This document shows positions 1 through 43,643 of a stretch of 64,000 nt of DNA, in pieces; the stretch's first letter is position 1; each line of letters begins with the position of its first letter. The notes under the pieces were generated by a model, which saw only the letters and a program-made list of their open reading frames with translations, was not told the DNA's origin and searched no databases. The stretch comes from Acholoe squamosa (lineage: Eukaryota > Annelida > Polychaeta > Phyllodocida > Polynoidae). Position numbers and translations under genes: made by a program. The stretch covers positions 24,061,495 to 24,125,494 of the forward strand of contig OX439048.1 in NCBI GenBank assembly GCA_949317995.1, given 5' to 3'.

Positions 1-851
1 GCCTTTTCATAGTGGAACCAGGCACAGTTTACATCATTGGTATCATTAAAACTAGTCCAATTGTAATTATCAAATTCTCTTAGTAAGGTTTCATCTGTTA
101 GGCGTGCATATGAGCGACCCGATATATAAACCTTTTCTTCTTTAATTTTCCATTTTTTTCTTAACAAATATATGGGTAGGTGGTCTGATATATAATTATT
201 CGTTACACCTGATTTAATACAATTCGGTTTGATGTTAGTAAAAATTAGGTCAAGGATTGCTTTTTTCCGCGTGGGATCCTTTACAACTTGTTCGAGACCA
301 TAGGTCTTCATACGATTCAATAGATTATTTATAATATCATTGTCTTCCACAATGTTAAAGTTGAAGTCACCCATTGCAATAATTTCAAATCTAGCCCTAT
401 TTTCAATGTTTACAATAATTCCTTCCAGAATATTAATAAATTCATTCTTGTCTCCATCCGGGGGTCTATAAGTATTTAATATAATTATAGGTTTCATGTG
501 TTCCTTGGTAATAGATATAATCTGGATTTCTATATCTTTGTCTGACCTATTAAGAAGTGAAAATATGTCAGGGTCATGTGATAAACCATGTTTTATAAAA
601 ATACATACACCACCACCTGTTTTAATATTACCTTTGACATCAAGTACCTGTCTATCTAATCTATAACGAGTGTACCCATATAGTTGGTAGTTCATTTCAT
701 CGTCTTCATTTTTTAACCATGTTTCAGAAAAAGATAAGATTTCAAAGTTTGATGGATATATTTCTGCACATATTGAGGCATAATTTGCTTTAAAACTTCT
801 AGCATTCAGGTGCATGAAGCGAAGGCCTCTGGTGCTTTTTAAATTAATCAT
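1..851 (-). CDS. LINE ORF2, N-terminal APE endonuclease part (runs off window)
   Basis: The minus-strand frame is open from about 851 to the window edge, so it is missing only because the window cuts it. It encodes an apurinic/apyrimidinic-like endonuclease, which nicks target DNA for target-primed reverse transcription. Visible motifs in order are HLNARSF near the start, SETW (catalytic Glu), a YRPP-type motif, GDFN (Asp/Asn pair) and SDHLP (Asp-His pair) near position 185. After the endonuclease the linker reaches a WFHYEK segment at the window edge that matches the same place in the ORF2 at 13101. The start is not certain: Met codons at 851 and slightly upstream are in frame, and the homologous ORF2 begins about 30 residues before the HLNARS motif. 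All endonuclease residues I can identify are intact. Confidence 0.85.
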   Translation of the reverse strand, partial: MINLKSTRGLRFMHLNARSFKANYASICAEIYPSNFEILSFSETWLKNEDDEMNYQLYGYTRYRLDRQVLDVKGNIKTGGGVCIFIKHGLSHDPDIFSLLNRSDKDIEIQIISITKEHMKPIIILNTYRPPDGDKNEFINILEGIIVNIENRARFEIIAMGDFNFNIVEDNDIINNLLNRMKTYGLEQVVKDPTRKKAILDLIFTNIKPNCIKSGVTNNYISDHLPIYLLRKKWKIKEEKVYISGRSYARLTDETLLREFDNYNWTSFNDTNDVNCAWFHYEK

Positions 852-1190
852 GTTATTATACTGCATAGCCATGTTTGGGTTCGAAATGGAGTTTTACGAT
901 ATCTGCGTGAACAAAATGAGAACGTATCTACCATATAATCAGGTTGGTATGGTTTTCTTTTGCCTCCCATCATCAGTATACATGTTGACAATTTTAATAC
1001 CAAATCAGGGACATCTGCCTTACTGCAGTCCCCAACACTGGAATACATTGTTGGATTGAAAGTGAACGTTTAGGTGGTAAAAAAACTTTTTCAGCATATA
1101 GGATACATTGGTACATAGACATAATATAGCTGGAAAAATGTGATACAGTGTTTATATAGAAATATTTGGTTCAGTCCGAGTCAGATCATT

Positions 1191-2621
1191 TCAGGGTTTA
1201 TCCCCTTGAGTTGTGGCCATTTCAAGTCTAATTTCTTCAGCTGTAGGTAAGGGTTGCTCTTTGGTATGTTGGATGCGAATCTTCATCAGCATTTCACCTA
1301 ATTTGTTGGTACACTCATGATCATTTGTCGCTACATTTTTGATGGTGATGGAATTTTTCAGGCCAAGGTGAAACCCAGATCCATAGGTCTTATTCAAGGT
1401 AGCTTCGTAGAGGTATTGACCCTGTGTCTGGGTTAATTCATGGAGTAGATCAGGTTGGGAGAATTTAATCTCCAGTAGACGTCTCATTATTGCTTCATCC
1501 TCATCAAACCATTCGTTGGTTAGGTTGCATGATTTGGCAGCATACATAGAGTCAATTGGTGTTTTTGCCATGTTTACACGTCTTAGTATATGTACTTGAT
1601 TACATACTACTGCTTTTTTGGCTTGATATGCACGTTCTACTGAGTCATATGAGTGACCTTCAAATTTTATGTCACATTTGTAGAGGTTTGAGAAAACCGA
1701 GTGCTCTCCTTGGAAGGCTATGCCATCAGGAGTTGAGACAGTTTTAGCATGTTTCAAGGATAATCCCATGGGCAGATTTCCAATATCTTTATACGCATAT
1801 AGGTGGTCTTGAATTACGATTTGGGTGCCCCTGACTGTGCAATCAATACCTTTGCTTTTGGCTAAGGCTTGGATAGATCGGAGATCTTTTTGCATCAGTT
1901 TTTCCTCTTGGCTAACGTCATCAGCCAGGTGAATGCCTTTCCATGCATTGTTTCCTTGTAGGTTCTTGATTTTGGCGAAGATCTGAGTCTTGTAGTGGGC
2001 CGATGAAAATATTATTACAACCGGTCTCTTTCTTGGTCTAAAGTTGGGATTCTTCTTTTGGTTTACATTTGGAGTATGTTTTTTTCCTCTTCTATACAGT
2101 GCCTCTGCAACTGCATTATTGAAGTCTAATCCCAGGTCATTTGTCAATTGATCCAGTATGTCACGTAGACTTCCAGGACGATCCTCATCTAGACCCTCAA
2201 TAATCAGAATTCTTTTTTTCCTTTCTCCATCCATTTTAGTGAATTGATCAGAGTGCTTCTCAGAGATTCCACCAAGGTTAGCAATGTCAGCAGCAGATTT
2301 AATAATCTTATCATCGTGTTGTGATAGTACTGTATCATGTTCACCGATCTTGTTCTCTAGTTCAGGGATAGTGGCAGTTTTGGTCTGTGGTACTCCATCA
2401 GGACCGAACAGTCTTTTTTCCATACCGTTAAGGATATTTAAAGTTCTCCTTGTGATATTTTCCTGGGCCTTGAGTCTTTCATCTAACTCATTTATCTTGT
2501 CGATGATAGCTTTAGGAGATGCTTTATATTTCAAAGCAGGTAGATATTTGATGTCTTCATTGTCAGAATCACTAAATTCACTCTGCGTAGGGCCGTTTTT
2601 GTTTAGACCGGACGTCGCCAT
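1191..2621 (-). CDS. LINE ORF1 protein with C-terminal NADAR domain (copy 1)
   Basis: A 476-residue intact frame. Residues about 36-125 are heptad-like and charged (coiled coil, trimerisation in L1-type ORF1 proteins). Residues about 135-215 look like an RRM, with an ILIIEGL strand and a PVVIIF strand. They are followed to about 290 by a basic C-terminal nucleic-acid-binding segment. Residues about 300-450 match the NADAR (YbiA-like) fold: VFSNLY near 309, DSVERAYQAKKA around 327-337 with conserved Glu329, EWFDE at 370, KF at 386, a G-Y-YEAT segment, the YGSGFHLG loop and a terminal NKLGEMLMKIR helix. NADAR enzymes cleave N-glycosidic bonds, including ADP-ribose on guanine. The start ATGGCG lies at the same alignment position as an internal ATGGCG in the second copy. 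ORF2 follows downstream on the same strand. Domain calls are from motif reading only. The fusion itself is certain because it lies in one uninterrupted frame. Confidence 0.88.
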   Translation of the reverse strand: MATSGLNKNGPTQSEFSDSDNEDIKYLPALKYKASPKAIIDKINELDERLKAQENITRRTLNILNGMEKRLFGPDGVPQTKTATIPELENKIGEHDTVLSQHDDKIIKSAADIANLGGISEKHSDQFTKMDGERKKRILIIEGLDEDRPGSLRDILDQLTNDLGLDFNNAVAEALYRRGKKHTPNVNQKKNPNFRPRKRPVVIIFSSAHYKTQIFAKIKNLQGNNAWKGIHLADDVSQEEKLMQKDLRSIQALAKSKGIDCTVRGTQIVIQDHLYAYKDIGNLPMGLSLKHAKTVSTPDGIAFQGEHSVFSNLYKCDIKFEGHSYDSVERAYQAKKAVVCNQVHILRRVNMAKTPIDSMYAAKSCNLTNEWFDEDEAIMRRLLEIKFSQPDLLHELTQTQGQYLYEATLNKTYGSGFHLGLKNSITIKNVATNDHECTNKLGEMLMKIRIQHTKEQPLPTAEEIRLEMATTQGDKP

Positions 2622-9553: not shown

Positions 9554-10678
9554 CTAAGGCCTACTAATAGTAGGCTCTGGGGGTTGGTATCCGAACTCCC
9601 TCTCTGCCGCTTCGTGTCCCTTCCAGGGCCTGAGCTTTCCTACATTGGTCTTCCATTTTCTACCAGTGTAGCAATCCTCCATCATCACTGTTGACTCAAA
9701 GATGATGCGCACAATCTTAAACGGACCCTCCCAAGGCGTTATGAGCTTCAGGCATTCGAGTGGCTCGTAATACCTTAGTACCTTGTCCCCTACATTAAAA
9801 TGTATCATTCTTGCATTGGTGTCATACCCGACCTTCTGCCATTTAGCACTCTTCAGTAGTTCTTTACGAACTGCTTCGTATGCATGCTTAAATCTATCCC
9901 GAAGCGACCACACAAACAACACAGTGCAGGGAGCCTCCGGGTCGATTCCAACCACTCTGTATACCAAGTTGGTGGGCATAATTATGTCCTCGCCGAACAC
10001 CAAGAGGTTTGGGGTACAATAAGTGGATGAATGGACGGTGTTCTTGTAGGCGTGTACTACAAACTCGCACTGTTCGTCCCAATCGTCCTGGTGGCTAATA
10101 ACCAGGGGCTTCAGGACCTGTATCAAAGTCCTATTGAACCTATCTACCTGGCCATCCGATTGTGGTCGGTATGGGTTGGTTCGGGTCTTACATATTGCTA
10201 AGTAATGGCACATTTCCTGCCATAAATCTGACTCGAATTCTCTGCCTTGGTCACTGTGCATCATGGGGGGTACACCCAAATGTAGCACCCAGCCTTTTAC
10301 AAATGCCTCGGCACATGTAGCGGCCTTGTGATTCGGAAGAGGAAACACCCGAGTGTACTTAGTATAGTAGTCGGTTACAACCATCATACAAGTATTCTCT
10401 CTAAGCATCGTTTTAAATCCACTGATGATGTCGATTGCTACCCAATCAAATCGGACACCAAACAATTCCTGGGTCAAGGCTAGCTTGCCCAGGCCGGGTC
10501 CTGGCTTGTTTTTACAACAATCAGGGCAAGTTGCAATCCACCGAAGTAGGTCGCCCCTCATCCCTGGCCAGTAAAATCGTCTTTGCAGACGTTCTATGGA
10601 CCGTTTCTTCCCAAAATGGCCACTCGTTTGGTGTCCATGACAATAATACATGATATCCCTTCTCAACGAAGGGATTAA
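9554..10678 (-). CDS. Gypsy integrase (front severed by LINE insertion)
   Basis: The frame is open from 10816, but residues before about 47 are LINE-A sequence, so the Gypsy part begins near 10678 at IPSLRRDIMYYCHG. An HHCC zinc-binding module follows (HxxxxH at residues 62-67, CPDC at 97-100), then the catalytic core: Asp129 in a VAIDI strand and Asp189 in HSDQGREF. The third acidic position, 35 residues further on, is Asp225 in SDGQVDRFNR, where the family has Glu. The enzyme would join element cDNA to host DNA. The C-terminus holds a GKLRPWKG segment typical of Gypsy integrase tails. The gene is inactive as it stands because it is cut from the rest of pol by 8.6 kb of LINE sequence and carries the Glu to Asp change. 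Confidence 0.9.
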   Translation of the reverse strand, partial: LIPSLRRDIMYYCHGHQTSGHFGKKRSIERLQRRFYWPGMRGDLLRWIATCPDCCKNKPGPGLGKLALTQELFGVRFDWVAIDIISGFKTMLRENTCMMVVTDYYTKYTRVFPLPNHKAATCAEAFVKGWVLHLGVPPMMHSDQGREFESDLWQEMCHYLAICKTRTNPYRPQSDGQVDRFNRTLIQVLKPLVISHQDDWDEQCEFVVHAYKNTVHSSTYCTPNLLVFGEDIIMPTNLVYRVVGIDPEAPCTVLFVWSLRDRFKHAYEAVRKELLKSAKWQKVGYDTNARMIHFNVGDKVLRYYEPLECLKLITPWEGPFKIVRIIFESTVMMEDCYTGRKWKTNVGKLRPWKGHEAAEREFGYQPPEPTISRP

Positions 10679-11200
10679 TGCTAGAATTAATGCTAGAAGT
10701 ATTAAAATAAAAGAAAAAATAGATGAATTCAAAGCAAGGTTTTCCAATACATGTGTTAATTTTATTACAATCACAGAAACTTGGTTTACTTCACTAGACA
10801 GTTCCCACTCATACAATATAAATGGATTTAAGCTGTTCAGGTCTGATAGACAATGGTCGGATGATGTTAATTATGATAGGCCAAAAAAAGGTGGTGGCTT
10901 GGGTATTTATGTTAATAATAATTTTCACTGTTCTACATCGTTATTGATTAAGTATAATTATTCAAACAGTGCCATTGAGACGTTCTGTGTTGTACTAACT
11001 GATAAAAAAGGTAAAAACAAAATTATTTGTATGGTCTACGGACCTCCAAAGGGCAACATGGAAACTTTCTACAATGTACTAGAGACTATTGTTAGTGAAT
11101 TAACAATTAAGGCCAGGAATAATTTCTTTGTTTTGGGTGATTTTAACATAGATCTCCTTGATCCAAACCTTAAAAATTTAAGTTGTAGGCTTACAAATAC
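10679..11200 (+). pseudogene. LINE-A endonuclease, first part (split by insertion)
   Basis: The visible frame (10650-11315) begins in Gypsy sequence and ends in the nested LINE, so only 10679-11200 belongs to LINE-A. It reads as APE endonuclease: NARS, TETWF (catalytic Glu), VYGPP and GDFNID motifs in order. It breaks off after an NLSCRLTNT segment. The rest of the domain, with the SDHH catalytic pair, is at 16420-16690. It is a pseudogene by insertion. The target-nicking residues themselves look intact. Confidence 0.85.
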
Positions 11201-11343
11201 GCGGGAAAATGACTCACGGCTAGAAGACGTAGGCGAGCGGGCTCCAGGGGAAAACCTTTCTATTTACCGGTTGTGGTCATTGCTCATCGACTATTTTTGC
11301 ACACATTCTATATGAACACCACAGTTATACAACACCACCATAA

Positions 11344-12831
11344 ATGAGTGCCTCCAACATTATATCGACCAGGAAAAATAGCTCAACACCACTACTCTGC
11401 CTCGACGAGAAGGGATTACCCAAAATGGCGGACATTCCAAAGGTAAACAAACCGAACGGAGACCAAACTGTGCCGCTACTACCACCTCTAACATACAATG
11501 CTAAACCCAAAGAAATAATAGACAAAATAAATGAAATTGACACAAGGTTAAACCTCCAGGCCTCTATTAGCCAACGCACACTCGAACTTCTTCAAGGACT
11601 AGAAAAGCGCATCTACGGTGATGAAGGCGCTGTCAAATCCAAAGTCACTCTCCCACAGCTTGAAACTCGCATTGACACGATTGACACAGCGCTAACCGAC
11701 CATAGTGACAGCATATCCAAAAACTCTAAAGATGTCAACAAGGTCAAATCTAGTTGTGATAGCTATGAAGAAAACTTCCTAAAAATGGAGACAGATCGGA
11801 AAAGGAAAATCCTTGTAATAGATGGGATAAATGAAAACTCACCTGTTACGTTAAGGGACAAACTAGACCAACTGATCCAAGACTTAGGCCTATCCTTTGA
11901 CAATACCTGCGCAGAAGCCGTGTACAGACGAGGTAGGAAGCTTGATCCAACCCCTCAACAGAGAAATGACCCTAAATTCAAGCCTAGAAATAGGTCTGTA
12001 ATTGTCATATTCACTGCCACACATTACAAGTCTTTAATCTTTGCCAATATTAGCAAGTTGAGAAATAATCTCACCTGGAAAGGGGTTCATCTCTCAGACG
12101 ACATGTCGCCAAAAGAAAAGCAAATCCAGAAGGACATTAGATCTATTCAGGCCCTAGCCAGGAGTAAACAGTTTATCTCTAGCGTAAGAGGAAATACCAT
12201 TATTGTTGATGGTGTAACCTACAGCTATGGTGAGCTTAACACCCTACCACATGGATTATCTCTTGAAAATGCAAAGACAATCGATACCCCTGATGGTGTA
12301 GCATTTCAAGGGCCCCATTCAGTCTTCTCAAATCTATATCCTTGCCAAATACAGTTCCATGGCCAGATGTTTGACTCAGTCGAAAGGGCATATTGTGCAG
12401 AAATGTGTGTTAAATCTAACCAACCCCATGTTCTTCGCAAAGTTATGTCAGCTAGCACACCTATGGAGGCAATGTATGCAGCCAAGACCTGTAAAAAATC
12501 AAATGAATGGTTCGACGAGGAGGAAACTACTATGTTCAAACTGATTGAAACCAAATTCAATAATCCTATCCTCAGGAACAAGCTGACAGCCTTAAAAGGT
12601 AAATACATGTATGAAGCCACAACCAACAAAACCTATGGATGTGGGTATCATCTAGGCCAGAAAGCTGACATAGTAATAGCCAATGTGGCCAGGTCAAACT
12701 TTGCCAATAAGCTGGGAGAAATTCTGGTTGAAGTACGTAGACTACACACAGGTGAAGACCCACTAAAAACTGCTGAAGAAGTTCGACTCGAGATGGCAAG
12801 AAACCAGGACCTAAATCTACCCCATGATTAA
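11344..12831 (+). CDS. LINE ORF1 protein with C-terminal NADAR domain (copy 2)
   Basis: An intact frame of 495 residues. The homologous start in copy 1 aligns with the internal ATGGCG at 11425 (residue 28), so the real protein may begin there. Domains are a coiled-coil-like region about 55-145, an RRM-like region about 153-235 (KILVIDGI and SVIVIF strands), a basic C-terminal binding segment to about 312, and NADAR about 317-466. NADAR landmarks are VFSNLY at 327, DSVERAY with Glu348, EWFDE at 388, KF at 404, the YGCGYHLG loop at 431 and NKLGEILVEVR at 455. In copy 1 the Glu is followed by AYQAKKA, as is usual for NADAR with a conserved Gln and Lys. Here those positions read AYCAEMC, so part of the pocket is changed. 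ORF2 follows on the same strand. Confidence 0.88.
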   Translation: MSASNIISTRKNSSTPLLCLDEKGLPKMADIPKVNKPNGDQTVPLLPPLTYNAKPKEIIDKINEIDTRLNLQASISQRTLELLQGLEKRIYGDEGAVKSKVTLPQLETRIDTIDTALTDHSDSISKNSKDVNKVKSSCDSYEENFLKMETDRKRKILVIDGINENSPVTLRDKLDQLIQDLGLSFDNTCAEAVYRRGRKLDPTPQQRNDPKFKPRNRSVIVIFTATHYKSLIFANISKLRNNLTWKGVHLSDDMSPKEKQIQKDIRSIQALARSKQFISSVRGNTIIVDGVTYSYGELNTLPHGLSLENAKTIDTPDGVAFQGPHSVFSNLYPCQIQFHGQMFDSVERAYCAEMCVKSNQPHVLRKVMSASTPMEAMYAAKTCKKSNEWFDEEETTMFKLIETKFNNPILRNKLTALKGKYMYEATTNKTYGCGYHLGQKADIVIANVARSNFANKLGEILVEVRRLHTGEDPLKTAEEVRLEMARNQDLNLPHD

Positions 12832-13100
12832 AATGGACAGTCTACATAATAATGAACTCAATGACTACGATTCTACTTATATACTTGTACTCTTGAATCA
12901 TTACTATGTATATTTATTTCTCTTGTAAATTTTTCCCTGCACCCCCTATGCCCCCTGAATCTAGTTGAAGACTTTATACCTTACCGGTACAATGGGTGGC
13001 AATAAGGCCTATACCCATGTAAATGTACCTAAATTATATATTACTTCATTGTACCAACAAACTTATACTGACTCTATAGTCAACTATATTTCTAATTTGC

Positions 13101-16013
13101 TTGAGAAGGGATTGGAACGGGTTTGGAGTACCAAGTTGCACCCCAAGCCTTAACATATCCCAAGACATAATTAGGTTGGCTGGCACCAAAGGTATTCATT
13201 TTGTTCACTTAAACGCCAGAAGCCTAAGGGCAAACTACCCTACTATATGTACTGAATTGTATAATGATAAGATTGAAATATTTTCTTTCTCTGAGACCTG
13301 GTTAAAGTGTGAGGATCCTGAAACCTCGTACCAATTTTGTAATTATACTAGATACAGATTAGATAGGCAAACCCTAGACGGTAAGGGAAATATCAAAACT
13401 AGTGGAGGCCTATGTTTTTATATACGACATGATGTACCACACGATTACAGTGCATTTGAGCATTTAAACCTATCTGAAGAACATATTGAAATCCAAAACA
13501 TCCTGGTTAATAAGGAACACATGAAGCCTATAATTGTATTTAATGTATATAGACCACCAGAAGAAGGCCTTAAACAGTTGTTTATTGACTCGCTATTAGA
13601 CATTATTGATAGAATTAATGATATTAATAATTATGAGATTATCATTATGGGTGACTTTAATTTTAATATTAAGGATGACAATGATATGGTCAATCAACTG
13701 TTAAATAAAATGAAAAGCTATGGGTTTATGCAAGAAATCAATCAATCTACCCGTAAAAATGCTATACTAGACCTGGTCTTTACAAATCTAAGAAGAAACT
13801 ACATTCAAACAGGAATATTGGAATCATATATCTCTGACCACCTTCCTATCTACTTGGTTAGAAAGAAGTGGCATATGAAACCTGAAAAAGCAGAGATTAC
13901 TGGTCGCTCTTATCTGAAACTTTCTGATGATATATTGTTTAACAAATTTGACAATCATGACTGGACCTTATTTAATCAGGCTAATAGCGTAGACAATGCT
14001 TGGGATGAATATGAAAAAGCTGTACGTTCAATCCTAGACACCTACTGTCCAGTTCATAAATTCACTGTTAATAAGCTAAGAGACCCGTGGATTACACCTC
14101 AAGTCATTGAACTTATTAGAGATAAAAATTCAAAATTAAAGACAGCTCGGAAATCGAAATCTGAAAATGATTGGAAAACTGCTAATAAATTAAGAAATAA
14201 ATCAAACAAATTGGTCAGTAAAGCACATAGATTATTTTACAAAGAACAAGCTGAGTCATATAAAAATGATCATCGTAAATTTTGGAGGGTTATAAATAAA
14301 TTAATCTCAGGTCATGAGAATAGGGTTGGTGATATAAATTTAGTGGATCACGAAAATGCTAATTCAACCATCCCTAGAAATGAAACCGCAGATTTTATCA
14401 ATGATTATTTTTCTAACATTGGTCCTAAACTGGCTACTAATATGCATACACCATGGAAAAGTTATGATCCACTTACTGCTAACACCATAAAAAATATCCA
14501 AACCAATGCTCAAGAAGTTATTAGGCTAGTTCACGACATTAACCCACTCAAATCCTCAGCTATTGACCAGATATCATCGAAAATTTTAAAGAAACTTTTC
14601 TCGCATGACCCTAATAAACTAGTTAAAATCTTTAATTTATCATTTACAACAGCCTCTGTTCCTGCCAAATGGAAAATCTCACAAGTAACCCCTATACCGA
14701 AATCTGGTAATCTGAATAATTATAGGCCCATCTCATTGATCCCTTTACCCTGTAAATAAATTGAAAAAAATGTTCACAATAGATTATATGGGTTCCTAAC
14801 TGATGAAAATATTTTAACAAATTTTCAAGGTGGTTTTCGTCCAGGCTTTAGTACTGTCGATACCCTAGCTAAATTCACTGATGATATTAAAAGAGACCTT
14901 AACATTGGGAATTCTACTGTTGCTGCTTTCATAGACTTGAGGAAGGCTTTTGATACTGTGGACCACTCAGTTCTTCTTATTAAACTCCATAATTATGGTA
15001 TAAGATCGGATACATATCACTGGTTTAAAAATTACCTGGTGGATAGGAAACAAATTGTTAAAGCTAATGGTATTACTTCTAGAATGTGTAGAGTGGTATG
15101 TGGTGTTCCTCAAGGATCAATATTAGGACCGTTACTTTTTCTGGTGTATGTCAATGATGTAATAAAATGTATAAAAAATTGTAAAATTAGATTATATGCT
15201 GATGATACTGTGATTTATACCTCTCATAATAATTTCAAAACTGCTAAAGTGTGCTTACAGGAAGATCTGGAAGTTTACAATACTTGGTGTGAGCAAAATA
15301 AGTTATCGGTAAATATTGCTAAAACCAAAGTGATGATTTTTTCATCATGTACCATGAAACTTAATACTTTGTCAGCCAATATCACCATGAATAATATGAT
15401 GTTGCAAGTTGTACCTAGTTATAAATATCTTGGAATCATACTGGATCCGCTACTGAATTTTAGTTTACATATCAAAAACCAGGTTAAAACAATTGCTCAT
15501 AAAACCTACCTATTATGTAATCTAAGGAAATATATTGATACCAAATTATCACTAAGAATTTTTAAAGCTACTATTTTACCATATATGGACTACGCTGATA
15601 TTATCTTCCATACTACCTATGAAAAATACCTTGAAATGCTCCAATATGCACAAAATCGTTGTTTAAAAATCTGTCTTAAAGTACCACATCTCACAAATAC
15701 CCCCTATATTCATGATATTACAAACTGCAATTTCTTATCTGATAGAAGACAAACACATTTATTAAATTATATGTATACAAGATCTAGATGTGATGAATAT
15801 ATAGACCATAGACAGATAAGAACAAGACAGCATTTGGCCCCCACATGTAAAGTATTATTCCCTAACACTGTTTCTTACATGAAAAGTATTGAATATTTTG
15901 GTGCCATAAGTTGGAATGCTCTCCCAATAAATCGTCGAAACACTGAAACTCTATCAATTTTCAAATCTAATAATAAAAAATTATTACTTGAACTTATTCC
16001 TAGAATTGGGTGA
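13101..16013 (+). pseudogene. LINE ORF2: APE endonuclease plus reverse transcriptase, one internal stop
   Basis: One reading frame runs through the whole interval and is interrupted by a single TAA at 14757-14759. The endonuclease has HLNARSL near 13205, SETWL, YRPP, GDFNFN near 13650 and SDHLP near 13840, all intact. A linker with an HRLFYKEQ segment leads into RT: RPISLIPL just before the stop, then FIDLRKAFDTVDH at about 14930, GVPQGSILGPLLF near 15100, the catalytic YADD near 15195, a KTKVM segment and YLGIILD near 15425. The C-terminus ends in a WNALPINRR segment. The enzyme nicks the target and copies the element RNA in place. An earlier short frame at 12965-13153 is probably spacer. 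The style fits the CR1/Jockey group. The single stop suggests recent decay. Confidence 0.9.
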
Positions 16014-16413
16014 GCAACCCGGCTTCTGATCTGCTACACTTATTCATTAATCAAAATATATTTTTCCTTCTCTCTCTCCCTCTCTCAATTACAATTATCT
16101 GAAAATTAAATCAGTATTATATACAATTATTGTTTATCACTATATTGGTACATTTCCTTCTTTCTATATGTCTTGTCAAATCTTTATGTGCGTCAATCTC
16201 ATACAAACTTATAAATAGTGTAGGTTGGACCAGAAGTATCAACCCATACACCCTAAGAGGTGGGGATGAGGTCCATCACCTTCTTTAGTCTCAACTTGGT
16301 AACCTACTATAAAATAACAGCCTGTATATGATATATGCATGTTATATATTCTGTACCTCTGTAATTGTCGTTATACTTGAAACCTGAGACAATAAAAAAA
16401 ACTTAACTTAAAA
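16014..16413 (+). other. 3' UTR and tail of NADAR-LINE copy 2
   Basis: Non-coding, with a CT-rich run near 16070-16086. It closes with a CTTGAAACCTGAGACAATAA motif followed by A-rich and ACTTA-type repeats. The LINE-A tail near 19250 carries a similar CTTGAGACAAATAAA stretch. Confidence 0.7.
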
Positions 16414-16419
16414 AAATAC

Positions 16420-18750
16420 AATGCTTCAATATGGACTAATAAATTGGGTCAAAGGGGCCACTAGAGAATCACAAAGGAATGGAGATAAAAACTCCTGTCT
16501 CGATTTAATATTCACTAATAATACTCATATGTTGAATACTGTTATTATACCTTTTGACCTAAGTGATCACCATATTGTTGGTGGTATTATGGATGTAAAT
16601 GATGCGAATCCTATATCAGCAAGCTTTAAGGGTCGTTCTATGAAAAATTTTAACAAAGATGATTTATTAAAAAAATTTCTGGATATTAATTGAGATGAAT
16701 TTTTTAATTGCCATGATGTCGAATTTTTATGGTCATATTATATTAATACAATTGAATGTATTCTTGATGAAATGTGTCCTATAAGAAATTTTAATATTAA
16801 AAAACCTAAAGATTGTTGGGTTACTGCTGATCTCCTGGATGACATAGCTGAAAAAGACCGGTTGCTAGCTAGATTTTGGAAAACTCATAATCTTTTAGAT
16901 AAATTAGCTGCCAAAGAGGCAAGGATTAATATTAGCAAAAAAATTACTTCAACCAGGGAAAATTTTGTTAAGAATATTACGGAAGAATTTAAAAATGACC
17001 CTGTCAGATTCTGGAGAGAAATTTCAAAGATTTTACCTTCAAAGAAAAATGATATTTCAATGATACAATTGTTTAATGAAGAAGGAGAATCTATTTCTAG
17101 TCGAAATCTTCCTGATTACATCAATGGTTATTTTGCTAATATTGGAAAAAAATCTAGCTAGAAATCTTAATGATGTGTGGTCTTATGATGGTGTATATAA
17201 TAATGATTGTATTTTGGATAACTTGAGTACTAGTGAAGAAGAAATTGAATATTTTATTGATGATATTTGTACTACAAAATCATCAGCTATTGAGGGAATA
17301 AGTTCTAGCATATTAAAAACGGTCTTCAAAAACTCATTGAGGCATCTCAAGCACATATTTAATACCTCGTTAAGGACTAGTAAAATTCCTCTTGAATGGA
17401 AAATAGCTAAGGTTATACCCATACCTAAAGGAGGTGATGATAAATCTGTCTCTAATCTTAGACCTATATCACTTCTATCTCTACCAAGTAAAATTTTAGA
17501 AAAATGGTTCATAGGAAAATTATTAACTTTCTTGAAGATAATAATTTATTATCATTAAATCAATTTGGCTATAGGAAAAATAAATCCACTATAGACTCGG
17601 TAGGTAAATTAACAGATGAAATTTTAATTAACAAAAATTATGGGCAAAATTCATTGGTTACATTTTTTGATCTCAAAAAGGCATTTGACACAGTTAATCA
17701 TCAAATTTTGATAGAAAAATTGCAGTATCTAGGTATCAAAGGTGATATACTAAACTGGATCAAAGTTTATTTAAGTGACAGATATAAATACACCTCTATT
17801 AATGGTATAAATTCAGATAAAGAGGCAATAGAATGTGGAGTGCCTCAAGGCTCTATTTTAGGACCAATACTTTTTTTGATATACATTAATGATGTACAAT
17901 TTGTTTGCAAAAATTCAAATATTTACTTATTTGCTGATGATACAGCAATTACTACAAGTTGTAAAAATGAAGGATTGGCATTATATAACATGCAAAAAGA
18001 TGTAGATGCTTTTGTAAGTTGGTGTGACAAAAACAAACTCACTGTTAATATAGAAAAAACTAAATTTATGGGTTTTGGTCATAATAAATGCTTCCCAAAT
18101 ATAAATATAAATATCAGAAATATTCCAATAAAGAGAGTACATAGTTATAAATACTTGGGAGTATTATTAGATCCAACTTTGAATTACAATATTTTTCTAA
18201 AAAATCAAATGAAAACTATTGCTTATCGTACATACCAACTTGCAAAAATAGCTAGGTTTTTAAGTACGGAGAATTTAATCAGAATCTACAAGGTCTATAT
18301 TTTGCCTATCTTTGATTATGGTGATATTTTATATGATAAATCAAATGTCGTTAATTTGGACAAACTGCAAAGAATGCAGAATAGAGCTATTAAAATTTGT
18401 ATGAAAGTCAACTATCTTACAGCTACAAATTTTATACATCATGAATCTAAAATAAGTTTTTAAAAGATAGGAGAAATTCTCATTTATGCATTGAAGGATT
18501 TAAAAGAGCAGAAAATAATTCTAATCTAAAATATATTAATAAAAAATTAAGATTTAATAAAGGTAAGATACTCTCTAATCATATACCTAAATGTGAAATG
18601 TATGAAAGAAGTGTTCATTACAATGCTTCAGTCATATGGAACAGCCTGCCGTACAAAAAACGTTGTATTGATAGTATTTCAAAATTTAGGTCTCTTTTAA
18701 GAAGAGAGCTAAAAGAATTTCTACCTTCAATAGAAGACATAACATAATTA
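16420..18750 (+). pseudogene. LINE-A ORF2, second part: endonuclease end and reverse transcriptase, broken
   Basis: This continues the frame broken at 11200. The endonuclease end has CLDLIFTN and LSDHHIV (Asp-His pair) near 16560. A TGA at 16691, probably once a Trp codon, stops the first frame. The same protein goes on to 17161 with CPIRNF and FWREISKI segments, then shifts frame twice (near 17140 and near 17540). RT motifs follow: LRPISLLSL at 17458, FFDLKKAFDTVNH at 17665, GVPQGSILGPILF at 17840, the catalytic FADD near 17930 and YLGVLLD near 18155. The last part, with an IWNSLPYKKR segment, is in another frame from 18466 to about 18747. The active-site residues survive, but there are at least one nonsense mutation and three frameshifts. 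Confidence 0.88.
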
Positions 18751-19297
18751 CTATTTCTTAGATACACTTATATTCTAAGTGTCCATTTGGTCATTTATGG
18801 GGTTATAATATTGCCAATATTTCTAAACCATTTACAACAATTATTGTAACGCTATTCTTTTGACTATGTCATACTTATGTAAATGTATTTCTAATCTCAA
18901 ACATTTGTCATTGCTTGCAATAATCTTATCTATTACCTATCCTTCCTTGTATTGTCCTGTATGTCCTTTTATTCAATTTTGTATTTCATGTATTTATATA
19001 ACTACTTGTGGAATACATGGTGGCCAACTAAAACTAATTTATTAAGCGGCAGCCATTTTGTCTCAGTAATATTAATATTAAAATCATAGAATATACTATT
19101 ATAACTCTTTTTTTTATAACTTGTAATTATCTTCTAACTATTATGTGTATATAATATATTGTAAATCATTGTAAATATTACTATAATGGTTAATATTACC
19201 TCATTATAAAAATTTGTTGACAATGATCTATATTGTGCTAATTGTATTATGACTTGAGACAAATAAATTACTTTGAATTGAATTGAATTGAATTGAA
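18751..19297 (+). other. LINE-A 3' UTR with TTGAA microsatellite tail
   Basis: AT-rich non-coding DNA with no gene. It ends in about five TTGAA units at 19273-19297 immediately before Gypsy sequence resumes. A microsatellite instead of a poly(A) tail is typical of several LINE clades outside L1. Confidence 0.8.
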
Positions 19298-20285
19298 TCA
19301 CTATTTGCAACAGCTTATTGCCTGTGGAAGTGGTCTTCCACCTGCACAATATGCTGTCTCGGATCTCTAGCTTGGTCCACTGAGCTATTAATCGCCTCGT
19401 TTCTCTGTCTTCCAGAGATAACATTGGCCTTACCGGCTTAATACCTTTTCGTAAGTATTCCAAGATGCGTGCAGTGGTGGGATCTGACTGCTGAAACTTC
19501 TTGATGGTCTCCGGGGACCAATCGAGATAGCTACATACAGCCTCCTCCCAGGGGATATGGGGGGTGGTATAGTTATGTAACAACCCGGCGACCACAGCAT
19601 TGTGGGCCCCGCAGTCATTACAAGTGGCATTTTGGCACTTTCGGACTGGTCGTCTCGATAAGGCATCCGCATTTATATGCTTTTCACCCGGGCGATGCTC
19701 AATCTGTTTGTGCTCTAATCCAAATTCGGATAGGTGAGCTAACCATCTTCCAATCATCCCCTCGGCACCTTTACAATTAAGAAGTCACCTGAGAGACGAA
19801 TGGTCGGTACGCAAAGTAAAGTCAGTTCCCCAGAGGAAATGCTTATATTTCTTCGTATACACCACTACCGCAAGGAGTTCTCTTTTAGTGGTACAATAAT
19901 TACGCTGTGTTTTGCTTAGCGTGTTGCTAGCGGGACTTAGACTCCATTCTGGACCTGAGAGAGTGCAGCCTCTATAGCATTATTGCTCGCATCAGTGTCT
20001 AGTATGAAATGTCCCTCGGGAGTGGGATATTTCAGTACCGGTGTGTTTCTAAACAAATCTTTTATTTTATTAAAAGATTCTGTCTGCTCGCTGGTCCATG
20101 GGAAGGGTTTCCAAACCCTACCCGGTGTCCAATGAGCTAGGCATTGCATAGGAAAACTTACACAAGAGTAATTCGGTATAAAATCACGCTAATAGGAACA
20201 AAATCCTAAAAATGATCTAACCTCCTTAGCACTCGTGGGTCTTTCCCAATTCTCTACTGCCTCAAGCTTCTCCAGATTTGCACTT
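19298..20285 (-). pseudogene. Gypsy RNase H and RNase H-integrase linker, broken
   Basis: Minus-strand frames 20149-19937 and about 19760-19300 are parts of one polyprotein. The first holds the RT/RNase H connection (FNKIKDLFRNTPVLKYP) and the first RNase H Asp (FILDTDASNNAIEAALSQ). Between them, RNase H sequence with stops is still recognisable around 19930-19760. The second frame has the RNase H end (IEHRPGEKHINADALSRRP) and a Cys-rich linker, and finishes with a LLQIV segment where LINE-A begins. The residues after 19300 in that frame are LINE tail and not Gypsy. It is inactive through stops and through separation from integrase. Confidence 0.82.
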
Positions 20286-36663: not shown

Positions 36664-37584
36664 CTATAACATCACATCTAAGGCTAATAAGTCCTGCTTG
36701 GAATCATGTAAATAATTATATACAATATTAGATCTCCAATTTGCTCTCTTTTTAATATAATCGACATTTAAACCAGAATCCTTTAACAAAGTTGCTCCAC
36801 CATGTCGGAGTGAATGAGTTGAAATTTTTTGGAGAATATCACATTTTATAGCAATAGCCTTCAACCTGGTATTAACATAGTTATAAGTCAAAGGTTTGTT
36901 ACCTATAGTGAACAATAGTCTATTTTTTGAAACCTTACAAATCTCCAAGTACCTAGCTGGACAAAGACCAGAATTATCATTACGTTTTAAATATACCACG
37001 TAAGGCTTCCTACCATATTGGTCAGTTTTAGAAGATTTAACATCAATGCGAATACAATCAACAGACAACGACACATTTTTAGATTTAAGGTTATGAGGGG
37101 AGTCCACTACATGGCCCACCCTGAATACACCTCGGTAACACAATAAGATAGCTGACCAGAAGACTACATCTTCATAAACAGACAAATCCAAAGACAAATC
37201 CAAATTAGATTTGATATTTAACATATCACTGGGAGTTAATGGATATGTTTTAATAGAAGAACATTTATAATTATGTTCAATACCATCCAGTGTCTTTTTT
37301 ACAATAAAACTACTACTATAATCAGAATAACCTTTTAATTTCTAATAATACCACACTGCGGACAAATAGTTCCTAACAGATATAGGTTTCATTTTATCTG
37401 ATAAATATACACTATACAACGAAGCTTGAGAAGGAGAACAAGGTAGGGGGTAGAAGTCAAATTTCTTACAAAATCTTTTGTACCTACTAAACTGCTGTTT
37501 GCGAACCTTACGTGTGGACTCAGCCACGCCCCTGTACAAAAACCTTCTCCTTCTCCGCTCCAGTTCCCTCAGATCTGGAAGCAT
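36664..37584 (-). pseudogene. Tyrosine recombinase of Ngaro-like element, one internal stop
   Basis: One minus frame covers 37584-36664 with a single TAG at 37342-37344. The N-terminal part (80 residues) is the SAM-like core-binding domain (RKVRKQQFSRYKRFCKKF). The catalytic part has the first Arg in CYRGVFRVGHV (residue 35 of the downstream 186-residue frame), a candidate Lys in SSKTDQ, the HSLRHGG box (His137, Arg140) and the nucleophilic Tyr in NIVYNYLHDS (Tyr169 or Tyr171). The enzyme would integrate a circular DNA copy by recombination. Its start overlaps the RT/RNase H frame by 65 bases in another frame, as in DIRS-order elements. The catalytic residues are intact, and only the internal stop argues against function. 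Confidence 0.9.
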
Positions 37585-39446
37585 AGCAACACATGTTATA
37601 CTCAGTTAAAACATTTTTACATTTCTGAGGAACACCCCTGTAATTCAGTCTAGACAAATGGTCAGCTAGAATATTTTCCTCAGATTTAATATATGTTGAG
37701 TATATTTCAATGTTATGTATAAAACATAGCCAAAAAATTTCTCTCAACCAGGACATACACAATTTATTCTTGGATCTACCGGTATTTAACATGGCCAAGA
37801 CCTGCATGTTGTCCGTAATACAATGAACTCTAGTGTTAGAAAACTTTTTCACCCAGCGTTTAAGACCTACCATTACCGGGTAGAGCTCGTACACATTTAT
37901 ATTCCTGTGGTGAATTTTGAGATTATCAAGTTTAGGGGCCTGAACGAAATGACCCACACAGTCTAACATAGGATTAGCGTCGTCCCAAGTACCATACAAA
38001 TAGTCCTTATCAAACCAGGCCCCAAAGCCCTGTATAGAGGAATCGGAATACATAGGAATACATTCATTATCATTCAAAATGATATTCTTACAATTAAAAA
38101 TCCTACAAAAATCCCTCCACCACAACAGGTCATTCTGGGTTTCCTCATTAAGTTTAATAACACCCTTATTCCTGGCTTTTGCACAAAGATCGAACAATCT
38201 CCTGCTGAAAGTTCTACCACCACGTACCACCTGGGAACAAAAAGACATCAAACCACCAATCTTCTGTAAAGTCTTTTTAGATACAAATTTTTTACCCAAG
38301 CATTCGTCTATTGCTAGGCTCATTTTATCTAGTTTCCTCTGTGGCAGCGACAACTCCATACACGTAGAATCAATAGTTATACCCAGAAAAGTACACACCT
38401 GGCTTGGCTCAGTCACCTTCTCTTTCGACACAACAAACCCTAAGTATTCCATACACTCGATAAGGATGTTCCTCTTACGTAAACAATCCTCCTCAGTCTG
38501 AGCTATGATAATAAAATCGTCCAGATAGTTTACTATTCTATCTACACCATAAAATTTTGCAATAATAGTAAAAAAATCAGAAATTCTACTAAATATATAT
38601 GGGGCACACTTCAGACCAAATGTCAACTGGTTACTCTCAAAAAACTCATCTCCATTACCAAAATTCCACCTGAACCCTTGATAGCCCACATGTGGACCAT
38701 AAATATTAATACTTCTATATGCAGATTTCAAATCTACCACACACATAAAGTCATTTTTATCAAGTTGACAAGTAACAGTGTTAATAGAGTTATACGAGAA
38801 GCTTTTGGACGTTGTGCTCATAAAATTATTAATAGAAATATCCGCTGGCATGCTACAGTCAGTGATAGGTCTTAATTTACCATTAGACTTCTCCACACCG
38901 CCTAAAGAATGGATGCATCTGGGCTTGACATTTGACCTCGTAACCAAGCCCTGGACTAGCTCCTCCTCAATAATACTACACATCTCGTTATAAAATCTAT
39001 TCTCTAAAACAGACTTATAATTTTTACAATCATATGTTGTATCACACTCTGGGTCAACTATTTTGAACCCCTCAGTAAAACCACACCATAGAAAATCAGA
39101 TTCAATCTGATTGATATTAATAAAGTCTGACTGCATGCCTAAGAAAACTAGCCAGTCGACATGGGAGTATCTGAGCCTTCCTACCATAAATGAAGTGCCC
39201 ACACATACATACACCATTTACACAACTATCATAAACCCTGATGCTGGGCCTATTTAAACATTCCACCGTAAAAAGTGGTTCAACCTCACCCTGTACTGGG
39301 CAACTATGAGAAATAAATAAATTCTTTGACAGGTCACAAGAATTATAAATATTTACATTATCATTATTAATATTATCACCCGGAATGATATTAACGGGAG
39401 GCTTAGGAGGGTCTACCGTACATACTAAATTAAAATCAGGCATCAA
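37520..39446 (-). pseudogene. Ngaro-like RT/RNase H (pol), frameshift near its N-terminus
   Basis: The main frame 39217-37520 gives 565 residues. RT motifs are KLRPITDCS at 114, the first catalytic Asp in VVDLKSAY (Asp162), QLTFGLKCAPYIFSR at 197 and the YLDD box at 231-234. RNase H shows Asp392 (MYSDSS), Glu444 (NVYELYP), Asp469 (CITDNMQ) and Asp519 (ILADHLSR), a full set. A second frame, 39446-39117, carries the probable N-terminal extension. The two share a boundary near 39190, where they fit together only across a one-base slip, so I read a frameshift and not two genes. The protein would copy element RNA to DNA and remove the RNA. Gag precedes it and the recombinase overlaps its end. Confidence 0.9.
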
Positions 39447-41562: not shown

Positions 41563-43643
41563 ATGTCACGCAAAAGAAAACAGGTTGAGATGGAGGCACA
41601 GGCGCAGTCTATAGAAGAGGAACGTCTGCAGAATCTGAGGAACCTGGCAGCCTATGTCATCATGGATGATGACTTGGATGATGACTACATTTTGCGTAAC
41701 CACAAGGTGCAGAGGTCACACATGTATTGGATGCACCCATATCTGCGTTCAAGGAAGGAGGAAAGGATGAAAAGATCCCTTGCCAGGCTGGAAGAGGATT
41801 TCCTGAGGGTGAGAAATTTTTATGCTGTTTTACCCGTACATTTATAATCATTCCCATGTCACAGGTCAATGTCTACATAAGGCCTAGTCTCATGCCTCTA
41901 TTATTTTTTATTTTCATGGAATTAAAACATATCAATAAAAATAATTGGCTATGTGCTGAAAAACAATTTGAGAAGCACACTCATGAGATGGAGTGTATAT
42001 GAACCCCTATGTAAAAAAGAGTCATCTCTTTAAAAACCAGATACCTAAAAAAAAAAGACATTTTCTGGCCTTAATATATTTTTTGCCTTATTTCCAGCTC
42101 GGTTGCATTTCTGAGTTCAAGAAGACCACACGCATGTCACCAGAGGTGTACAAGGACCTGCTAGAGATGGTGCGACCGTACATCACATACCAGGACACAT
42201 CTTTCCGTGATGCAGTCACAGCTGAGGAGAGGTTGAGCTTGACTATCAGGTATCTGACACGAGGTAAGAAGTTTGAGTCTGTACAGACACAAAAGTGTGA
42301 AATTTTTCCTTCTCGTTTATATCTTGTTCAAAAACAGAAGAATACATTTTGTTTTATTTATGGCCAAAAAGTTGTGAGTTGCTTAATATAAAAATAATTT
42401 AATTAACTTTACACAATATTTCAGTCAATAGTTTTTAATTATGTGTTTTCCTCTCCAGGAGACAGTGTTACGACTCTTCACCAGGGTTACCTGGTAGGTG
42501 AGTCAACGGTGCTACCCATGGTGAGAGACACTTGCAAAGCCATCTTCAGAGCCTTGCATGAAACATACTTGAAGGTATGTGTCTTTAGACTAACTTTATG
42601 ATCCCCCCCCAAAAAAAAAACAATTAAAGGAACCACTTTAACACTGTCTGTGACATGATAATAGACCTTTCATTCCATATAGAAATCTTCTATCAAAAAT
42701 AATTCCTGAAGTATGAGTGTGTGAGTAAAAGAATTACTCTTCTGCAGAAGCACAAGTCAAAGCCTGCTTCTATCTGACTGTAATTTTGTTTTTTATGTTT
42801 CAGCCGCCTACCACGAGGGATGACTGGTTAGCCATAGCCAAAGGGTACCACGACAAGTGGAACATGCCACATGTACTGGGTTCTTTGGATGGGAAGCATA
42901 TCCGCATAAAGAAGCCAAAGAAGTCTGGTTCGAACTATTACAATTACAAAGGATATTACAGCATAATTCTGTTTGCCTTAGTAGATGCAGACTATAAGTT
43001 CACATATGTGGATGTCAGAGCAGAAGGTAAAGCATCAGATAGCACTATTTGGAAGTACTCCTCTTTTGCTCAGGATATTGATGCTCCAGGTAACCCCCTT
43101 AATGTGCCAGAACCCTCAACTTTTCCAGGCTTCAACGGGGACTTGCCCTATCATTTTCTTGCTGATGACGCATTCGAGATGAGTGAGAGACTTATGAAGC
43201 TATATCCCTCCACCAAACTCACCCCCCAGCAGAGGATATTCAACTACCGCCTGAGCAGGTCTAGACGGTGTGTGGAGAACGCCTTTGGGATCCTGGCCAC
43301 TCGTTTCAGGATTTTCCGCCGAGAAATAGAAATGGCTCCAGAAAATGTGGACATTATAGTACTGGCATGTGTGGCTTTGCATAATTACCTTAGAACAGTG
43401 GCCCCAGGAGCATACCTTCCGAAGGAAGCTTGCGACTGGGAGGGGAAAGACTACAAACAGCACAAAGGTCTGTGGCGTGCAGAGAAGGTCCTCCCAGGCG
43501 GAAAGCCTACTACTGTACGCAACCGATCAGACAGGGTCAAGATAATGAGGAACAATCTCGCGGGATGGTGTCTGACCAAGGAGGGAGAACCTCCAAAACA
43601 GTGGGACGTTGTTATGCAACATGACTTCTACTTTGAGCGCTAA
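41563..43643 (+). CDS. Harbinger DDE transposase, four exons
   Basis: The proposed exons are 41563-41808, 42098-42263, 42459-42574 and 42804-43643. Each intron has GT-AG ends and phases that match, giving 455 residues. Exon 1 is charged and helical (MSRKRKQ start, LDDDYILRNHKV). Exons 2 and 3 hold the helix-turn-helix-like region (MSPEVYKDLLEMV, AEERLSLTIRYLTRG). Exon 4 is the nuclease core with GSLDGKHI (Asp205), a LADDAFEM box (Asp297) and CVENAFGIL (Glu334), the DDE triad of PIF/Harbinger. The protein would cut and join the element ends, probably with the MADF protein encoded on the other strand. There is no stop or frameshift in the spliced frame, so the gene may be intact. Splice sites are by eye. 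Confidence 0.9.

Follow-up and report, generated by a model that had tools for sequence, protein, structure and literature searches.

In the genome of Acholoe squamosa, selection maintains a NADAR domain in the ORF1 protein of two LINE families, here called families A and B. A family A element lies within the window, by which we mean the whole 64,000-nucleotide stretch of DNA that was analyzed, and its ORF1 (11344 to 12831, plus strand) consists of 495 codons that are open without interruption in the list of open reading frames and in the translation. The 495-amino-acid product is made up, in order, of a coiled coil, an L1-type RRM, a CTD and the NADAR domain. The Pfam model for NADAR (PF08719) matched residues 324 to 466 (12313 to 12741, plus strand) at an E value of 5.5e-13 and 49.9 bits, against a curated cutoff of 35.1. 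When a profile composed of the window ORF1 and three database relatives was compared with the PDB, its C-terminal part matched the solved NADAR 8bau (4e-19) and Escherichia coli YbiA 2b3w (3.4e-9), and the coiled coil, RRM and part of the CTD matched the LINE-1 ORF1p 2ykp (8.5e-6). An earlier note on this DNA had described a single intact frame joining the coiled coil and RRM of an L1-type ORF1 protein to a C-terminal NADAR, and had proposed a profile search as a check. The single frame is confirmed, the NADAR match is present in both Pfam and the PDB, and the L1-type identity of ORF1 is borne out by the profile match to 2ykp. Chance similarity to NADAR is ruled out by the same Pfam and PDB profile matches.

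A profile built from the non-NADAR part alone reached LINE-1 ORF1p at 4.6e-4, a level at which unrelated coiled-coil proteins score equally well or better. Searches of the PDB with single sequences found neither NADAR nor ORF1p, and the single ORF1 sequence did not match Pfam Transposase_22 up to an E value of 0.1. The protein nevertheless has the coiled coil, RRM and CTD in the order that distinguishes Type II (L1-type) ORF1 proteins. Identity as the YbiA enzyme of the riboflavin pathway was considered and is ruled out, the score against TIGR02464, the model for that pathway, being 48.5 bits versus an equivalog cutoff of 73.7. Relatives of ORF1 are few in the protein database (two and four in separate searches), and one of the proteins found, P0005, is a non-LINE protein. 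None was found among the 598 viral contig stretches that were scanned.

The family A LINE in the window is a full-length copy of 5.2 kb nested inside an older LINE, and its limits (11201 to 16413, plus strand) were set by homology among copies, by their differing flanks and by the continuity of the older frame. Homology began at window positions 11197 to 11203 in all 11 family A copies compared (L036 to L046) and ended at 16413 to 16424 in nine of them and at 16299 to 16300 in the other two, and the flanks differed from copy to copy. The older LINE is represented on the left by part of an endonuclease cut by the family A insertion (10650 to 11200, plus strand) and on the right by the rest of the endonuclease followed by a decayed reverse transcriptase (RT) (16420 to 18463, plus strand), both recognized from Pfam matches and the joined frame and the latter also from the list of open reading frames. 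Removal of the insert joins the two endonuclease flanks into one open frame of 274 amino acids. The 6-bp word AAATAC is duplicated around the element (11195 to 11200 on the left and 16414 to 16419 on the right, plus strand, with limits that are ambiguous within a run of A) and is a putative target site duplication whose length is no greater than that of the control, since unrelated flanks also share words of up to 6 bp. When the window and the 11 copies were compared, the word common to the two flanks was longer than this control maximum at three of the 12 sites, each by one base, and the window was not one of the three.

Downstream of ORF1, the list of open reading frames and Pfam place an endonuclease-RT ORF2 at 13101 to 16013 (plus strand), in one frame that is broken in the window copy by a single in-frame TAA at 14757 to 14759. 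In 20 copies fetched from the genome (11 of family A and 9 of family B), ORF2 was open from stop to stop over at least 956 amino acids in 13, and the RT motif YADD was found in the longest RT-bearing frame of 19, with none in L042. The element closes with AATAAA and an AACTTA-type tail (16391 to 16413, plus strand). A block of 64 to 74 nucleotides in the 3' untranslated region (16221 to 16293, plus strand) is 77 to 81% identical between family A and six of the nine family B copies, though their ORF1s are only about 52% identical; it is possible that this block is a recognition signal for the RT. An Rfam search over the window gave no matches.

A search of the genome (1.48 Gb, 63 contigs) with the window ORF1 protein, in which 86 of 3,519 candidates were scored and whose counts are lower bounds, yielded at least 87 matches. 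At least 66 of these belong to family A, at 76 to 100% identity and with two of the matches being pieces of one copy, and at least 21 belong to family B, at 53 to 56% identity and without internal stops in any of the 21. A third family, C, is present in the window itself. Its ORF1 (1191 to 2621, minus strand) encodes 476 amino acids with a NADAR match at 6.7e-16, and the endonuclease part of an ORF2 lies behind it at 3 to 872 (minus strand), running off the start of the window. In a tree, family C is the sister of family B (support 100/99). The statement in the earlier note that the NADAR-bearing ORF1 adjoins an endonuclease-RT ORF2 and thus belongs to a LINE stands, and further copies with NADAR in frame next to ORF2, whose absence the note had named as a refutation, exist in the animal's own genome. 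A one-off fusion or an assembly artifact is ruled out by those copies.

Selection on the domain was assessed using 38 distinct intact frames, comprising 27 of the 30 A1 loci, two A2 loci and nine of family B; L011 and L014 were left out of the A1 set for an internal stop and L010 by the start-motif filter. The ratio dN/dS was taken as mean dN over mean dS by the Nei-Gojobori method, from pairs that are not independent and copies that were chosen for their intact frames. For NADAR, this ratio was 0.106 within A1 (351 pairs), 0.075 between A1 and A2 (54 pairs) and 0.096 within B (36 pairs). The corresponding values were 0.058, 0.027 (with dS saturated in 49 of the 54 pairs) and 0.061 for the RRM; 0.107, 0.060 (3 of 54 pairs saturated) and 0.060 for the CTD; and 0.116, 0.125 and 0.127 for the coiled coil. 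NADAR is thus constrained, less so than the RRM. Because synonymous sites are mostly saturated between families A and B, identity was used for that comparison, and it amounted to 58.5% for NADAR, 55% for the RRM, 58% for the CTD and 39% for the coiled coil. With dN/dS values of 0.075 to 0.106, we conclude that the NADAR domain is maintained.

The domain is not confined to these families. When the genome was searched with the Pfam NADAR model (3,224 candidates), at least 150 places were scored, all over the cutoff, and eight of them (L051 to L058) were read. Three of the eight, L051, L052 and L053, precede an ORF2 endonuclease, and the endonucleases are of two kinds, one of which, that of L052, is L1/Tx1-like. 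L051 encodes 463 amino acids, recognizable on reading the sequence as coiled coil, RRM, CTD and NADAR, and is followed by an endonuclease open reading frame. An endonuclease like that of L051 lies 0.3 to 0.9 kb downstream on the same strand at no fewer than 11 of the 16 places that start at profile position 8 among the matches listed. L052 (530 amino acids) and L053 (536 amino acids) form one family, and each is followed by an endonuclease frame that is cut by the end of the stretch; the endonuclease of L052 matches LINE-1 endonucleases in the PDB (8sp5, 4.4e-8). L055 and L056 appear from their ORF1 architecture to belong to LINEs, although the short stretches read there show no ORF2.

The remaining three loci are of other forms. 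L054 (positions 567 to 2837 of its stretch) is a frame of 757 amino acids with NADAR in the middle of the protein, and frames of 757 to 777 amino acids recur among the NADAR places listed. Its C-terminal part has a weak match to the esterase-type SASA model (0.003, below the cutoff), and the locus showed neither a PDB match of note nor an ORF2 in the short stretch read. We tentatively regard it as a LINE ORF1, possibly a Type IV ORF1 with a NADAR domain. L057 and L058 (G000:C17:9901769-9902218 and G000:C14:682108-682554), recovered in the NADAR search, are open frames of 222 and 247 amino acids with a stand-alone NADAR at 183.8 and 169.3 bits; with introns left out of account, they are probably host genes.

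The type of LINE to which the window element belongs was considered from its ORF2. The endonuclease of the family A copy L039 found no LINE-1 endonuclease in the PDB up to an E value of 10 and showed no similarity beyond chance to that of L052, and it matches the endonuclease of L051 with 36% identity over 120 amino acids (7e-18). Tx1 is a LINE of the L1 group, and an L1/Tx1 identity for the window element was rejected on these comparisons. Because the L039 endonuclease lacks a LINE-1 match where that of L052 has one, the element is not filed under L1/Tx1, and to judge from its endonuclease it does not look like such a LINE, though its ORF1 is L1-type. The whole ORF2 matches LINE-1 ORF2p (8e-15) and R2 RTs (8e-13) at similar, weak levels. 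Its length of about 970 amino acids and its C-terminal motif are, we presume, typical of the CR1/L2/Jockey group, and on this basis the window family is likely a member of that group.

The residues with which a Phytophthora NADAR holds ADP-ribose are listed in section 12 of PMC11543638. We equated 8bau with that protein, since the numbering in the paper agrees with the 8bau residues at an offset of two, and columns 84 and 86 of the contact table were left out, as two alignments place them differently. The two glutamates that contact the distal ribose, E43 and E125 in 8bau numbering, correspond to E347 and E424 of the window protein and are kept in 38/38 and 37/38 of the intact A and B copies, respectively. 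At the site of the phosphate lysine K50, all 38 copies have methionine (M354 in the window). The counterpart of K50 in the E. coli C7 NADAR, K95, is reported as essential for hydrolysis of guanine-ADP-ribose (PMC11543638). Among the aligned rows of families A and B (seven and four), K75 is replaced by methionine, R93 by glutamate or aspartate, the position of R79 holds lysine or arginine, and the tryptophan W89 (W389) is kept. With the changes at K50, K75 and R93, most of the clamp that grips the pyrophosphate of ADP-ribose in 8bau is altered. Compared with the guanine-ADP-ribose hydrolases as a class, families A and B thus have both glutamates and lack the phosphate lysine.

In the alignments, the lysine is present in family C, L051, L054, L055, L056, P0003 and the host-like L057 and L058, and its place is taken by arginine in L052, L053 and P0004 and by histidine in P0002. 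The NADAR tree unites A, B, L051, P0002 and P0004 in a clade with support of 100/97, to which family C also belongs, and within this clade the site varies among K, R, H and M. That the lysine had been lost throughout the clade was considered and is overturned by family C, the sister of B, which has it. The lysine would then have been lost twice, or lost once and regained. Across the clade of A, B, C, L051, P0002 and P0004, the phosphate side of the pocket has changed and the ribose side has been kept. The window family has the lowest NADAR score of the LINE NADARs scanned here, 49.9 bits, compared with 59.4 for C, 61.0 for B and 88 to 98 for L051, L052 and L054 to L056.

The ORF1 protein would coat the RNA of the element, placing the fused NADAR on the ribonucleoprotein, where it may serve as a cis-acting N-glycosidase that works on the RNA or cDNA of the element itself or on its nicked target. 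Its likeliest substrate would be a base-linked ribosyl adduct, for example, guanine-ADP-ribose made by host ADP-ribosyltransferases. We favor this reading, a cis-acting N-glycosidase that most plausibly removes base-linked ADP-ribose, an activity that may be absent or altered in A and B, but hold it tentatively and at rather less than even confidence. In its favor stand the Pfam and PDB profile matches, the low dN/dS of NADAR, the retained ribose glutamates and the open ORF2 of most fetched copies. NADARs are reported to hydrolyze guanine-linked ADP-ribose on DNA (PMC11543638) and also on RNA (PMC11833690), and CARP-1 of shellfish is described as writing N2-guanine ADP-ribose, with a proposed role in innate immunity (PMC8053099). 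Against ADP-ribose hydrolysis in A and B stand the methionine at the essential lysine in every copy and the change of two more phosphate contacts; because the lysine and these other contacts are lost, hydrolysis in the two families may be weaker, altered or lost. Family C, L051, L055 and L056, which keep the lysine, are the better candidates for it. The variation of the lysine site within the clade and the low NADAR score of the window family also count against the favored reading, as does the demonstration in PMC11125620 that activity of a NADAR in vitro need not mean protection of the cell. The counter-defense suggested in the earlier note would be a candidate function of the domain.

The same substitutions would suit a domain in A and B that retains the fold without the chemistry, a noncatalytic module that helps ORF1p to assemble and that binds RNA, nucleotides or a protein partner from the host. 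The uniform methionine, the replacement of K75 by methionine and of R93 by an acidic residue, and purifying selection over the whole domain all agree with such a module, yet the ribose glutamates and W389 have been kept and the lysine is present in the sister family, C, and we judge this explanation somewhat unlikely. A pocket with its ribose side kept and its pyrophosphate side changed could also belong to an N-glycosidase with another substrate, be it some other nucleobase that is damaged or modified, a structure at the cap or tail of an RNA, or a small signal molecule derived from ADP-ribose. Small-molecule and RNA-processing roles have been proposed for viral NADARs (PMC9503650), and processing of RNA intermediates has been proposed for those of transposable elements (PMC12477816); however, no such substrate is indicated here and the riboflavin model matched below its cutoff, and this possibility is an unlikely one. 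That a host NADAR gene was captured by chance and persists as a functionless passenger is very improbable. The genome does hold two stand-alone NADAR frames, L057 and L058, but these fall outside the window-family clade (100/97), the tree leaving them and L054, L055 and L056 unordered; in addition, NADAR recurs in several LINE families, and in the many copies and subfamilies compared its dN/dS is close to 0.1. A neutral passenger is rejected on the NADAR dN/dS.

A wider reading is that LINEs of this animal have repeatedly taken on NADAR as an enzymatic arm. Several families would carry it, with ORF2s of two kinds and with ORF1s of the coiled-coil-RRM-CTD form and perhaps one of esterase type, and they would keep it in response to base-linked ADP-ribose that the host places on the nucleic acid of transposons. 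We consider this wider proposal distinctly doubtful. If it is true, nucleic acid ADP-ribosylation would be an animal defense against transposons, and the lineage-specific change of the NADAR pocket would be the trace of an arms race.

NADAR domains have been noted in mobile elements before. PMC12477816 briefly reports NADAR in ORF1 of several families of Tx1 LINEs in Crassostrea gigas, the same placement as in the animal LINE described here; these families differ from the window family, whose endonuclease is not L1-like, and L052 looks to be their closer counterpart. The same source describes NADAR in the Pol of a Gypsy element of Ectocarpus, likewise a capture by a retrotransposon but one in an LTR element and in Pol rather than ORF1. 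The Type II ORF1s of the L1, CR1, L2 and R1 clades (PMC4120745) share the N-terminal architecture of the window ORF1, and the words NADAR, YbiA and DUF1768 are absent from the main text of that paper. The DarT1-NADAR antitoxin and other guanine-ADP-ribose hydrolases (PMC11543638) have the fold family and the two glutamates in common with the LINE domain, which differs in being fused to an RNA-binding ORF1p and, in A and B, in having methionine for the essential lysine. The NADARs of animal RNA virus polyproteins (PMC9503650) also occur in a replicating RNA-based element, but in a viral polyprotein rather than a LINE. A nonexhaustive search of titles and abstracts, with most subscription journals and bioRxiv outside its scope, returned no other paper on NADAR in LINEs. 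Within the reach of these searches, it is new that NADAR occurs in LINEs with an ORF2 that is not L1-like and in several families of a single genome, that the domain is under selection and that the key lysine varies naturally.

According to the Discussion of PMC11125620, it is unclear what NADARs do in animals. In the present genome, the domain is fused to the RNA-binding protein of mobile elements and retained there under selection, in families with and without the key lysine, two of which occur in one 64-kb window. Such families make possible a direct test of whether these proteins remove ADP-ribose from RNA or DNA and whether the element needs it; if both hold, ADP-ribosylation of bases would be indicated as a means of defense against transposons.

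The surroundings of the element contain other mobile DNA. The older LINE is flanked on one side by an integrase with Pfam H2C2 and rve matches (9554 to 10816, minus strand) and on the other by a piece that resembles a Gypsy RNase H, without a Pfam match (19134 to 19757, minus strand). The arrangement is probably a nest three deep, with a Gypsy element holding the older LINE and the latter holding the NADAR LINE. Farther along, a tyrosine recombinase (36664 to 37224, minus strand; Phage_integrase, 2.3e-11) lies beside an RT (37520 to 39217, minus strand; 7.7e-17), and the pair, at 36664 to 39217, resembles an element of the DIRS or Ngaro type. A DDE_Tnp_4 transposase (3.9e-33), which we take to be Harbinger-like, is located at 42786 to 43643 on the plus strand.
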